From a virus, in the IMG/VR virus record IMGVR_UViG_3300028610_000134, positions 1-25,797 of that record: a stretch of 25,797 bases of DNA. One strand, 5' to 3'. The position numbers and the translations under genes are program-made. Within the stretch, counting starts at the first letter, position 1, and every line of letters begins with the position of its first letter. The notes under the pieces were generated by a model. It saw only the letters and a list, made by a program, of their open reading frames with translations. It was not told the DNA's origin and did not search any database. Positions 2,802 to 25,464 of the stretch are shown piece after piece.

Positions 2802-4309
2802 TATCGCCTACCCCCCGGTGCCACGTCGAGGCGGATCACTCCAACCCTCCACGCCTTGTTCCTGGCCTGCGTCACCTTCATGCGAACGGTCCGCCCGGTC
2901 TTCCGCACATCGGTCTGCGCGGACAGCGGGCTGACCACCAGCTCGTCCCCGTTGTCGTCGGGGTAGTTCTTGAACGTCAGGGTGCCAGTCACGTCCCCGA
3001 GGGTCTTGTCGTCGGGGATGATGTGGAGCACGGTCATGATCTGATCGCCGTTCCCGATCTCGATGGGACCGGTCTCAGCGAAGGGGACCTGGTTGTCCAT
3101 GCCCAGGCCCTTCTCGTGCTCCATGGGCTTCGACGCGCTGGACACCGGCTTGGTCCAGATCGGGTGCTGGGTCGCGCCCCGGTCCACGCCGTCCGTCCTG
3201 GGCAGCACCCCGAAGTACCATATCTTCTGATTCACGTTGTAGACGACGTACCGGTTGTTCTCGATCGAGTTGGCCGAGGGGTAGAACCACCACACCTCAC
3301 CAAACTCAGCCATGGGCACGGCCGCCACCTTCGACCGCTGGATGAAGTTGAAGTCGGAGAACACGTAGTCCCCCACCTCCGACGGCAGCTCCCGCGTGAA
3401 CCCGTCGTACACGAAGAAGCCCTTCCGGCCCATCCAATAGTGACGGCTCTGCATGGCCGCCATAGTCCGCCGGCTCATCGCTCCGCAGTTGGCCCCTACC
3501 TGCACGAACTGGTACACGTCCTCCCCGCCGATGTACCTCATGGCCCAAATGTCCGTCTCGGTCCAGATCAGCGTCTCGTTCCGGCCACGTCTCCCTGCCA
3601 GGATGTCGCCGGAGCCAGGCATGGGGAAGTCCCCCGCCTGGTTGGTCGCCAGAGGCGCCCAGGTGGTGCGGTCGTTCTGGTCGCTCCACGCGACGAGCCG
3701 CCTGTCACCGTCCGCCCCGAGGGCGACGAGGAACCTCTCGGGTGTCACCACGATCGCGTTCGCGGTCGGGGCGTTCGCCACCGCCACGAAGTCGTTGGCG
3801 ATGTTCAGGTCCCAATCGTAGATCCCGTTGTCGGGCCACGGGCAGCCAACGAGCACCTGACCGAAGTTATCGAACGACCACGACCCTGCTTCCAGGATCT
3901 GGTTGTTCACGTCCGACACCACACCACCGTAGGGACCGGCGCCGTAGATACCCTCGCCGTACGCTCCACCGTCCACGACGGTCGCGTGCTCCGTGCCGCA
4001 GCTGATGCCGGCCGGAGTGATCTCGGTGAGGACGCCGAGTGAGAACGCCCACGCTTTGCAGTAGGACCCGAACGCAACTTCAGCCACCCCGTTGTCCCTC
4101 TTCCATGAGAGGATACCCCGGGTCGGCTGATCCATGGAAACGAGTGCGTCCGTGATGTCGGTCAGCTGCTGCCAGCCACCTAGCGGCTGGAGCGCCCCCT
4201 CGAACCAACGGACCAGGGTGCCGTCGAACCAGCGCCCCTTGGTCTCGTACTCTGTGCCGTTACGGAAGAACCCAGGCGGGAACTTCAGCGGAAAAAGCTG
4301 CTTGGCCAC
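2801..4309 (-). CDS. P22 gp10 / tail nozzle-like structural protein
   Basis: The 502-residue product opens with a stretch near residues 9-45 of the form PPGFFRNGTEYETKGRW...LVRW.EG...P.GGW. This is typical of a podovirus tail protein family related to P22 gp10 (stabilisation protein) and to tail nozzle subunits. The rest is rich in Trp, Gly and beta-strand patterns (for example GIYGAGPYGG near 120 and WMGRKGFFVYDG near 295), compatible with a propeller-like fold. P22 gp10 has 472 residues, so the length fits. It would attach below the gp4-like adaptor encoded at 12701-13345. The start is ATG, and the stop overlaps the GTG of the next gene (TAGTG). The class is fairly secure; equivalence to P22 gp10 is inferred. 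Confidence 0.72.
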   Translation of the reverse strand: MAKQLFPLKFPPGFFRNGTEYETKGRWFDGTLVRWFEGALQPLGGWQQLTDITDALVSMDQPTRGILSWKRDNGVAEVAFGSYCKAWAFSLGVLTEITPAGISCGTEHATVVDGGAYGEGIYGAGPYGGVVSDVNNQILEAGSWSFDNFGQVLVGCPWPDNGIYDWDLNIANDFVAVANAPTANAIVVTPERFLVALGADGDRRLVAWSDQNDRTTWAPLATNQAGDFPMPGSGDILAGRRGRNETLIWTETDIWAMRYIGGEDVYQFVQVGANCGAMSRRTMAAMQSRHYWMGRKGFFVYDGFTRELPSEVGDYVFSDFNFIQRSKVAAVPMAEFGEVWWFYPSANSIENNRYVVYNVNQKIWYFGVLPRTDGVDRGATQHPIWTKPVSSASKPMEHEKGLGMDNQVPFAETGPIEIGNGDQIMTVLHIIPDDKTLGDVTGTLTFKNYPDDNGDELVVSPLSAQTDVRKTGRTVRMKVTQARNKAWRVGVIRLDVAPGGRR

Positions 4310-23242: not shown

Positions 23243-23551
23243 TTACGCCTGCTCATGAGGCAGGATCGAGACCGAGATGTCGATGGCGCCGTTGCCGTCC
23301 GCGTCCACGCGGAGCAGAACGCCCTCCGGCAGCACGAAGTTGCCGTTCCCGGCAGCGGTCAGGGTCGTGTCCGAGCCTACCGCGATCCAGGTGGTCCCGT
23401 TGTCGTACGACGCCTGGAGAGTGTACGTCCCGGTGTCGAAGTCTGCGCCCCAAGCCGCGAAGGTGCCAAGGCCGCCGCCCCATGCGATCACGGAACTTTG
23501 TGCGTCGGCGCCGGCGATGGCTTCGGCGTCTAGTCTGAAGAGTGCGGGCAT
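23243..23551 (-). CDS. Small beta-rich structural-type protein
   Basis: The product has 102 residues and starts at ATG behind GGGAGAAA. It is built of beta strands: TYTLQASYDNGTTWIAVGSD (about 43-62), TLTAAGNGNFVLPEG, and LLRVDADGNGAIDISVSILP at the end. The pattern of a strand with YDNGTTW followed by a FVLPEG turn and a final strand is familiar from small phage virion proteins of unknown role. It lacks signal or TM segments. It could be a decoration or fibre component. Confidence 0.68.
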   Translation of the reverse strand: MPALFRLDAEAIAGADAQSSVIAWGGGLGTFAAWGADFDTGTYTLQASYDNGTTWIAVGSDTTLTAAGNGNFVLPEGVLLRVDADGNGAIDISVSILPHEQA

Positions 23552-23564
23552 TTCGTGTTTCTCC

Positions 23565-23912
23565 CTACGTTGGTAGCAAGTGAGCTGTCATGAGCCCCAT
23601 GATTAGCGGTACGGTCCAGTCAAGCCAGCTGTCCGCCGCCTTGAGCTGCACCCCGGCCTCCGCCCACTGCCGGCCGAACACGAACCGCCCCAGGTCACCC
23701 CATTCGCGGACCGTGTAGAAGAACATCGCCGCCCCGTACCCCACGCCCGCTCCGAAGGCGGGTCCGGGGTCGAGGAACAGCAGAAAGAGTCCCCACCCGG
23801 CGCAGACAGCCGCCGAGCAGATGAGCCCGTGATTGATCGGGCTGACGAGCGGGTGAAAGACGATTCTGGCGAGCCACGGATGCTGGCTGATCCAGTCGTC
23901 GATCCTACTCAG
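23565..23912 (-). CDS. Hidden small membrane protein with apparent CTG start
   Basis: The frame from CTG at 23912 to TAG at 23565 encodes 115 residues with protein-like composition. It has IDDWISQHPWLARIVFHPLV, a hydrophobic stretch at about 29-67 (LICSAAVCAGWGLFLLFLDP then GVGYGAAMFFYTV), WGDLGRFVFGRQWAEAG, and a closing hydrophobic helix DWTVPLIMGLMTAHLLP. The first ATG is codon 63 and no GTG or TTG is placed better. The CTG overlaps the lipoprotein TGA as CTGA, mirroring ATGA and GTGA overlaps elsewhere here. Without it there would be a gap of about 340 bases in an otherwise gapless operon. A sequencing error hiding an ATG or GTG is the alternative. Confidence 0.7.
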   Translation of the reverse strand: MSRIDDWISQHPWLARIVFHPLVSPINHGLICSAAVCAGWGLFLLFLDPGPAFGAGVGYGAAMFFYTVREWGDLGRFVFGRQWAEAGVQLKAADSWLDWTVPLIMGLMTAHLLPT

Positions 23913-24403
23913 AAGTCAGCGCCGACGTACGAACTCATCGACGGGCTAGGCGTGATAAACAGCGTTCCGGTGTCGCAGCGGAGTGAGGTCATAGGGATGG
24001 GTCGCGGGGGCATGGTGACGAGCCCTCCGCCGGTGATGTCGAGCAGAATGTACCCGCCGCTGTCCAGGAAATGCCGGCTGACCTCGTACGTGTGGTCTCC
24101 GAAGCCTTGGATCTGTGGCTGGAGGGTCCAGCGGGATCCGCCCCTCGACATGATGATTATTCTCATCGAGAAGGACGACTGATTCTCCACGTTGAGGTAG
24201 GCCGAGGCGCCTTGGCAGTCCTGCTCCTCCAGAGTCGCCTCGTCACGCGGATCTAGCTCCGCGCGGCCCATCGAGCACCCCGTGAGGAGTGCGAGGGCCA
24301 GGATTATGGCCATGACGATGAAGAAGGAGCCCACCACGCCTTGATTCCGGCGCTGGGAATTCCTCTTCACGTCGCGGTATCTCAACCCGGTCAGGGCCTT
24401 CAT
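23909..24403 (-). CDS. Phage-encoded lipoprotein
   Basis: This 164-residue protein has a basic N-terminus (KRNSQRRNQG) and a hydrophobic core (SFFIVMAIILALALLTG). A lipobox LLTGC follows, with the modified Cys at residue 43 and Ser-Met after it. The mature part is about 120 residues and beta-rich (SAYLNVENQSSFSMRIIIMS and GGYILLDITGGG), with two further Cys. Ser at +2 favours sorting to the outer membrane in Gram-negative hosts. Possible roles are superinfection exclusion, outer spanin or virion-associated envelope protein. The ATG overlaps the previous stop as ATGA. Confidence 0.8.
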   Translation of the reverse strand: MKALTGLRYRDVKRNSQRRNQGVVGSFFIVMAIILALALLTGCSMGRAELDPRDEATLEEQDCQGASAYLNVENQSSFSMRIIIMSRGGSRWTLQPQIQGFGDHTYEVSRHFLDSGGYILLDITGGGLVTMPPRPIPMTSLRCDTGTLFITPSPSMSSYVGADF

Positions 24404-24669
24404 CTATCGAACCCCGCGCCGCGAATCGGGAAGCAGTACATCGGCTCCGGGAGATCCACCCGGAAGGCGCCGATCTGCTCGTCCTGGTACGCCTCTGCCA
24501 TCACACGGACAGGTCCCGGTACTTGTACCTGGACCTCGTATGGCTCTGGAACGTACTCCACGATCCGGTCCACTTCGGCCGGCTGGAGCCAACAGATCAG
24601 CAGGACGCCGCCGATGACTACGGCGACGATCGCAGTGACCCACCAAGGGAGCTTCATGTCGAGTTTCAC
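24400..24669 (-). CDS. Single-span membrane protein upstream of lipoprotein
   Basis: This 89-residue protein has one transmembrane segment near residues 9-28 (WWVTAIVAVVIGGVLLICWL). A probably periplasmic tail follows, rich in Val/Pro/Glu (VDRIVEYVPEPYEVQVQVPG). The GTG at 24669 is chosen because AGGAGG ends five bases before it. A GTG at 24675 overlaps that same AGGAGG and so cannot use it. The overlap with the lipoprotein gene suggests the two products act together at the envelope. No coiled coil is obvious, so a spanin label would be speculative. Confidence 0.75.
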   Translation of the reverse strand: MKLDMKLPWWVTAIVAVVIGGVLLICWLQPAEVDRIVEYVPEPYEVQVQVPGPVRVMAEAYQDEQIGAFRVDLPEPMYCFPIRGAGFDR

Positions 24670-24674
24670 AGACA

Positions 24675-24680
24675 CCTCCT
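24675..24680 (-). promoter_or_regulatory. Shine-Dalgarno site that fixes the membrane-protein start
   Basis: A perfect AGGAGG lies five bases before the GTG at 24669 and overlaps both the stop of the preceding gene and a competing GTG at 24675. It points to 24669 as the true start. Confidence 0.7.
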
Positions 24681-25248
24681 AAGTAGCGTCGAATTCACGT
24701 CCCTGAATGATAGCCTGGAAATTGTCCATGTTGACCAGGTTGTCTCGAATCGTCATCTCGACCTTGTCGCCCGCCTCGAAGATCGGCACGTAGCCGGCCT
24801 TGAAGAGCGACCACCGAATCACCATCACGTCGGGGATCGTTCCCCGGTTGAGCGAGACGATCGGCAGATCCTGCGCTGAGAGGTGCGCGAAGTCCAGCGT
24901 GGTCTTGATCGCGTCCTCGAACACCACGATCGACTCGTCGTCCGAGTTGACCGCCTGCATCAGGCACCCGTTCGTGAGCGCCGCGCCGAAGCCGAACCAG
25001 TCCGTGTAGATGATGTTCAGGTCGACCGCCGTGAACACCGCCCGGGAGAAGATGAACCGCTTCCCGGCCGGCACGATGTGCTGGAAGTTCTTGGGCGTCG
25101 TCCCGTCGATGTTCATGTCGGTGGACACGCCGAGGCCGTCGAGCGTCAGATGCTCCTCGACCCACTCCGAAGGCGGAATCGCCTGCGGGGCTACGAATAC
25201 TCGGTCGAGCCCCATCTCCAGGTGCTGGGCGAAATTCCGGTTGATCAT
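24679..25248 (-). CDS. Beta-rich virion-type protein
   Basis: This 189-residue protein starts at ATG, overlapping the stop of a micro-gene by four bases. After a short helical N-terminus it has GTTPKNFQHIVPAGKRFIFS (about 49-68), then FGFGAALTNGCLMQAV (about 86-101). An IKTTLDFAHL segment follows, and near the end VEMTIRDNLVNMDNFQAIIQ. This order (PAGKRFIFSR strand, GAALTNG turn, final IRDNL-type strand) recalls a recurrent family of phage structural proteins that may sit on the capsid or tail surface. The exact role is unknown. Confidence 0.7.
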   Translation of the reverse strand: MINRNFAQHLEMGLDRVFVAPQAIPPSEWVEEHLTLDGLGVSTDMNIDGTTPKNFQHIVPAGKRFIFSRAVFTAVDLNIIYTDWFGFGAALTNGCLMQAVNSDDESIVVFEDAIKTTLDFAHLSAQDLPIVSLNRGTIPDVMVIRWSLFKAGYVPIFEAGDKVEMTIRDNLVNMDNFQAIIQGREFDAT

Positions 25249-25355
25249 CGCCGCTTCCCTGCCGCCTTACGTGCGCGGCGAGCAAGCCACTGCTGCCAAG
25301 GCAGACGCTCCTCCAGGAGGAGAAGCAGGATCAGCCCGACCAGGACTTGGACCAT
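25245..25355 (-). CDS. Micro membrane protein (36 residues)
   Basis: The frame encodes 36 residues: a hydrophobic helix MVQVLVGLILLLLLEER and a strongly basic tail (LARRARKAAGKRR). The ATG at 25355 is preceded by an in-frame GTG at 25358. The stop TGA overlaps the next ATG (ATGA), as in other real junctions here. The hydrophobic helix plus basic tail is a credible single-span inner-membrane peptide. Confidence 0.6.
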   Translation of the reverse strand: MVQVLVGLILLLLLEERLPWQQWLARRARKAAGKRR

Positions 25356-25359
25356 CACC

Positions 25360-25464
25360 CTAGATGCTGAACCGGATCGGGGGATACCACCGGCCGGAGC
25401 CGACTCGATACCCGAGGGCGAAACTGCCGATCGCCACTGCGACGAATCCGATGAACAGAAGCAT
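25360..25464 (-). CDS. Micro membrane protein (34 residues)
   Basis: The frame encodes 34 residues starting MLLFIGFVAVAIGSFALGYR, one hydrophobic helix, and ending in a short Gly/Arg/Trp/Pro tail. The ATG at 25464 has AAGGACAGG upstream and its TAG is followed at once by the next micro-gene. It is the first protein gene after the tRNAs. The function is unknown; envelope association is likely. Confidence 0.6.
   Translation of the reverse strand: MLLFIGFVAVAIGSFALGYRVGSGRWYPPIRFSI

Follow-up and report, generated by a model that had tools for sequence, protein, structure and literature searches.

In bacteria, the overlap of a stop codon with the start codon of the next gene drives reinitiation by terminating ribosomes, and the extent to which the Shine-Dalgarno sequence contributes varies, according to those parts of Huber et al. 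(2019, PMC6728339) that are drawn on here. The pairs documented there are of the ATGA or TGATG type. CUG is a poor start by comparison: its output in Escherichia coli is about 0.86% of that of AUG, and it accounts for 0.024% of bacterial starts (PMC11497404). Evolution of a start codon to CUG is very rare, with 2 cases among 61,358 ancestral AUG codons (PMC5622118). In leadered mycobacterial reporters, CTG is not enriched, whereas ATT initiates well (PMC4633059). Reinitiating eukaryotic ribosomes, on the other hand, accept near-cognate codons, as described for caliciviruses (PMC5972666).

Here, we analyze a 25.8-kb virus record (IMGVR_UViG_3300028610_000134; its whole length is referred to as the window), in which a 115-residue frame without an early standard start follows a lipoprotein gene. 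The arrangement resembles the termination-reinitiation pairs covered by the cited parts of PMC6728339 in its four-base NTGA overlap, its co-directional genes and its weak or absent Shine-Dalgarno sequence, but the overlapping codon is CTG. With calicivirus reinitiation it would share a start-codon identity relaxed by coupling to the upstream stop; that process, however, takes place on eukaryotic ribosomes with the help of an upstream RNA element dedicated to it, and no bacterial or phage equivalent is established here. Our reading of the locus is that of a real, fast-evolving three-helix membrane gene placed after the lipoprotein gene and restarted at the overlapping CTG, to which we assign a probability of roughly 0.47.

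Results

Organization of the Locus

The terminase, the SU10-type portal and the major head protein of the virus are encoded on one strand. On the minus strand, 116 codons without a stop extend from position 23915 to 23565 and end in a TAG (23565–23567). On its 5′ side an in-frame TGA (23916–23918) closes the frame, with a single CTT codon between it and the CTG; the codons that follow this TGA read CTT CTG AGT AGG ATC. From the CTG to the TAG (23565–23912, minus strand), the frame comprises 115 codons, as the sequence-only reading had described, and encodes a predicted three-helix membrane protein. It is located between the gene for a 164-residue predicted lipoprotein with an LTGC lipobox (23909–24403, minus strand) and a gene for a protein of 102 residues (23243–23551, minus strand). 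The gap between the TAG and the latter gene is 13 bases long, and the Shine-Dalgarno sequence of the 102-residue gene, AGGGAG, overlaps the TAG itself.

Upstream of the lipoprotein gene lies a gene for a 91-residue protein with one N-terminal transmembrane segment (24400–24675, minus strand); its stop and the ATG of the lipoprotein gene overlap as ATGA. The layout of these two genes, a single-transmembrane protein followed by a lipoprotein, resembles an i-spanin/o-spanin pair; against the PHROG models the lipoprotein gives only a weak Rz-like match (E = 0.057). Further upstream on the same strand, two tiny open reading frames for predicted membrane proteins of 36 residues (25245–25355, with a stop that overlaps the ATG of a 189-residue gene) and 34 residues (25360–25464, with a Shine-Dalgarno-like AAGGACAGG upstream) may also be skipped by gene callers. 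A tRNA-Asn (GTT) is found at the contig end (25509–25582, minus strand), upstream of the structural operon.

Coding Potential of the Frame

To assess the coding potential, a codon model was derived from 14 large genes in the window, and 114 stop-free pieces in wrong frames and 68 true pieces of 115 codons served as controls. The log-likelihood ratio of the 115-residue frame is +18.3 nats, or 0.159 per codon. The wrong-frame pieces reach at most −0.073 per codon, and the true pieces do not fall below 0.041. The score is similar to that of the adjacent lipoprotein gene (19.1), which has homologues at the protein level. The GC content by codon position (0.63/0.49/0.83) resembles that of the neighboring genes. 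The openness of the frame is unremarkable on its own, as an open frame of such length occurs in 5% of composition shuffles.

The 56 N-terminal codons, which lie 5′ of any standard start, display the same pattern (0.63/0.50/0.82; shuffle p-values of 3e-4 to 6e-4). The codon choice of this half taken alone is weakly positive (+2.4 nats), and the support for the N-terminal part therefore comes mainly from the codon-position GC. An echo of a plus-strand gene with coinciding third positions was considered as a source of this contrast and discarded, since no open plus-strand frame of at least 40 residues there has the third-position alignment that could account for it. Among the 32 coding-like frames of the window, the 115-residue frame is the sole one whose first ATG, GTG or TTG lies deep inside (codon 57) while the part upstream is non-negative. 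That part scores +1.1; in the other frames whose first start comes later than codon 7, the corresponding part ranges from −1.0 to −29. The frame thus has the codon usage and codon-position composition of a protein-coding gene; judged on these codon statistics it is very probably translated, and we are confident that it represents a real phage gene.

On the opposite strand, a frame antisense to the lipoprotein gene (23829–24182, plus strand) also has a coding-like score. It is less conserved in the relatives than the lipoprotein and is, therefore, probably a composition echo.

Comparison with Related Loci

Searches with the 115-residue protein against viral contigs, phages, plasmids and species genomes revealed no significant homologue. 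Sequence conservation of the kind that marks a coding gene was consequently not found for the frame; an orphan phage gene is not required to have it. The sequence-only reading had proposed a search against phage proteins as a way to examine the start codon in homologues, and this search left no orthologous start codon to read.

A search with the terminase identified four syntenic relatives (L001–L004) with the same neighborhood and terminases that are 80–87% identical. Synteny searches with the terminase, the portal, the lipoprotein and the 189- and 102-residue neighbors yielded these four close relatives only, and the slot is occupied in one of them. The lipoprotein is conserved in all four (36–47% identity), and the 102-residue protein has a relative, 53% identical, in L004 only. 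In L001, L002 and L003 other genes directly follow the lipoprotein gene and the membrane gene is absent; its absence from three of the four relatives implies that the gene is dispensable in this group. Five named phages with distantly related terminases contain no such module. The stretch from the lipoprotein to the terminase is highly variable in L001–L004 despite the similarity of their terminases, and is likely a hot spot of gene exchange.

In L004 (IMG/VR contig IMGVR_UViG_3300017530_000059), the slot after the lipoprotein gene is occupied by a 91-residue open reading frame for a multi-helix membrane protein (3262–3537), with a coding composition (GC by codon position of 0.59/0.46/0.79). 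An overlap of eight bases (ATGTCTAG) joins its start, an ATG without a Shine-Dalgarno sequence (−1.9), to the lipoprotein stop. The two N-termini read MSRF in L004 and LSRI in the window, which places the ATG of L004 at the residue equivalent to the CTG, in an alignment whose homology is not significant. An RE motif followed by a D..(x)D segment before the last helix is common to both proteins. When roughly 17,000 open frames from 175 loci were scanned with this motif, which was built from those two frames, convincing matches were limited to the same two. In a MAFFT alignment the proteins appear to be 33% identical, a value that does not exceed that of shuffled sequences (p-values of 0.05 to 0.17). 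Because the alignment does not surpass the shuffles, the L004 frame is, by this sequence comparison, regarded as a positional counterpart and not as a homologue.

The counterpart resembles the 115-residue frame in its slot, its small multi-helix product, a start that overlaps the lipoprotein stop, the lack of a Shine-Dalgarno sequence and an xSR[I/F] beginning. It differs in the use of ATG, the eight-base overlap, a different frame relative to the lipoprotein, a product that is 24 residues shorter and the presence of an extra gene behind it. This extra small gene (L004:3434–3748, containing ...KKILREGVARGRKLSPKQKGLFGLIAGG...) lies between the membrane frame and the 102-residue gene and is absent from the window. 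Together, composition, place in the operon and the membrane frame in the same slot of L004 support the earlier proposal that a small membrane protein is encoded by a hidden frame here.

The CTG and the Lipoprotein Stop

The candidate CTG start (23912–23910) overlaps the TGA of the lipoprotein gene (23911–23909) as CTGA (23909–23912, minus strand) and has no Shine-Dalgarno sequence. The duplex score at this position is −2.6, compared with a background median of −4.2 and values of mostly −5 to −12 at annotated starts. If the CTG acts as the start, the overlap is that of a termination-reinitiation pair, a property that any TGA stop would yield as NTGA. The −1 frame of every TGA stop supplies an NTG, and the outcome is ATGA, GTGA, TTGA or CTGA. 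C is the commonest third base here (43%), and CTGA ends three of the seven TGA-ending genes of the phage. The overlap is therefore uninformative, and the argument of the sequence-only reading, that CTGA copies the ATGA/GTGA geometry of neighboring genes, carries almost no weight. The base that creates the CTG is the wobble base of the last lipoprotein codon, Phe TTC, which is used 219 times in the phage against 15 times for TTT.

Coupling itself is plausible, as the slot lacks a Shine-Dalgarno sequence both here and in L004, where the ATG overlaps the lipoprotein stop, and translation of the 115-residue gene is probably coupled to that of the lipoprotein gene. Of the earlier suggestion of a CTG start driven by termination-reinitiation, the coupling is thus plausible, and the CTG remains a candidate start. 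The CTG is our leading candidate for the main start of the gene, with about an even chance of being so. In any case, standard gene callers would miss or truncate the gene.

Alternative Explanations

Several other accounts of the frame have to be weighed. The start may have been lost by a recent mutation or an assembly error near the junction; the frame would then represent a gene in decay or an artefact of the sequence. The sequence comes from one metagenomic contig with no second copy in the viral, phage, plasmid or genome collections, the gene is missing from most of the relatives and hence dispensable, and the TTC bias of the last lipoprotein codon could alone have made the CTG or degraded the start. 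The remaining frame is, however, intact, with no stop and with a coding composition to its end, and its own stop abuts the Shine-Dalgarno sequence of the next gene. Furthermore, the end of the lipoprotein matches those of its homologues (GADF/GADI/GADV), so the junction looks undamaged, and we consider a lost or misread start unlikely. The statement of the sequence-only reading that no usable ATG, GTG or TTG exists is correct for the first 56 codons but overlooks a GTG (23742–23744, minus strand), which is the first canonical in-frame start, is preceded by GGAG at a distance of five bases and gives a product of 59 residues. This could be an ordinary short gene, with 23745–23912 as its leader or a remnant. 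The Shine-Dalgarno duplex at this GTG (−7.0) is near the median of the phage genes, and the coding score is strongest 3′ of it (+15.8 of the +18.3 nats). Yet translation from the GTG would begin within the second hydrophobic segment, in the predicted helix 51–70, and lose the most hydrophobic segment, residues 29–47, although the N-terminal part retains its coding periodicity. The local RNA fold (−27.9 kcal/mol) exceeds in stability those at all annotated starts (−8 to −22, the most stable being −22.2), and a gap of 164 bases would be left in a tightly packed operon, at a slot that the counterpart in L004 fills. The short gene is, for these reasons, decidedly unlikely.

Ribosomes that terminate on the lipoprotein gene might instead use another near-cognate codon, most likely the ATC three codons after the CTG (23901–23903, minus strand; 112 residues) or the additional one at 23891. 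AUU and AUC are known near-cognate starts. The Shine-Dalgarno pairing at the two ATC codons is slightly better (−4.6 and −5.1) than at the CTG, and it is ATT and not CTG that performs well in the mycobacterial reporters (PMC4633059). Against this, GTAGG precedes the ATC at 23903 with almost no spacing, and the first residues of the L004 counterpart align with the CTG (MSR/LSR), which renders such a start improbable. Even less credit is given to a chance open frame in GC-rich DNA: the incidence of such lengths in shuffles and the lack of a database homologue would agree with it, but the codon score lies beyond the wrong-frame distribution, position-specific GC is found in both halves and the frame fits exactly between its neighbors. 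The frame might also be appended to the C-terminus of the lipoprotein if ribosomes shifted by −1 ahead of the TGA. Its register, −1 relative to the lipoprotein, would allow this, as would the absence of a stop from one codon before the lipoprotein TGA onwards. The sequence GCT GAC TTC TGA, however, has no slippery heptamer, and the Phe-tRNA would pair poorly on CTT. In addition, the counterpart in L004 has an ATG of its own and is read in another register, and a three-helix membrane protein joined to a lipoprotein makes for an awkward topology. The frameshift fusion was rejected for want of a slippery site and is the least probable of these accounts.

Predicted Product

Single-sequence AlphaFold models of the 115-residue protein and of the L004 counterpart show a helix at the N-terminus and hydrophobic helices after it, at low confidence (pLDDT 58–60). 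No PHROG, Pfam or NCBIfam model matches the 115-residue protein. The protein resembles phage holins and other small membrane proteins of lysis modules in its size, its three hydrophobic helices and its position beside a single-transmembrane protein and a lipoprotein, but differs from them in having no match to these families and in the lack of an identified endolysin in the window. A holin would be recognized by a family match or an adjoining endolysin; neither was found among the models and the window proteins scanned. To judge from the gene layout, the product could serve the phage envelope or a lysis module as an accessory protein in the membrane.

Discussion

A coupled restart at the CTG would proceed as follows. 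Having completed the lipoprotein at the TGA, ribosomes would not leave the mRNA but would begin again at the overlapping CTG, using the initiator fMet-tRNA. Such a restart would deliver a low dose of the membrane protein, and a low dose might be enough for a membrane accessory, which, to go by the layout of the genes, would act beside the transmembrane protein and the lipoprotein. A broader proposition is that, in this phage, coupled reinitiation relaxes the choice of start until a near-cognate CTG that arises from the stop codon of the preceding gene, as in any NTGA, regularly starts a membrane gene; we hold this to be possible but doubtful.

If the CTG is not used, the locus still contains a small orphan membrane gene. 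If it is used, the locus provides a natural case of a bacterial virus in which reinitiation takes place at a near-cognate codon, and it exposes a concrete blind spot in those gene callers that accept no starts other than ATG, GTG and TTG. In GC-rich genomes, nearly half of the −1-frame NTGs at TGA stops are CTG, and even weak use of this codon would matter for annotation. If the phenomenon is general, genes 3′ of CTGA overlaps in GC-rich phages would be systematically missed by such callers.
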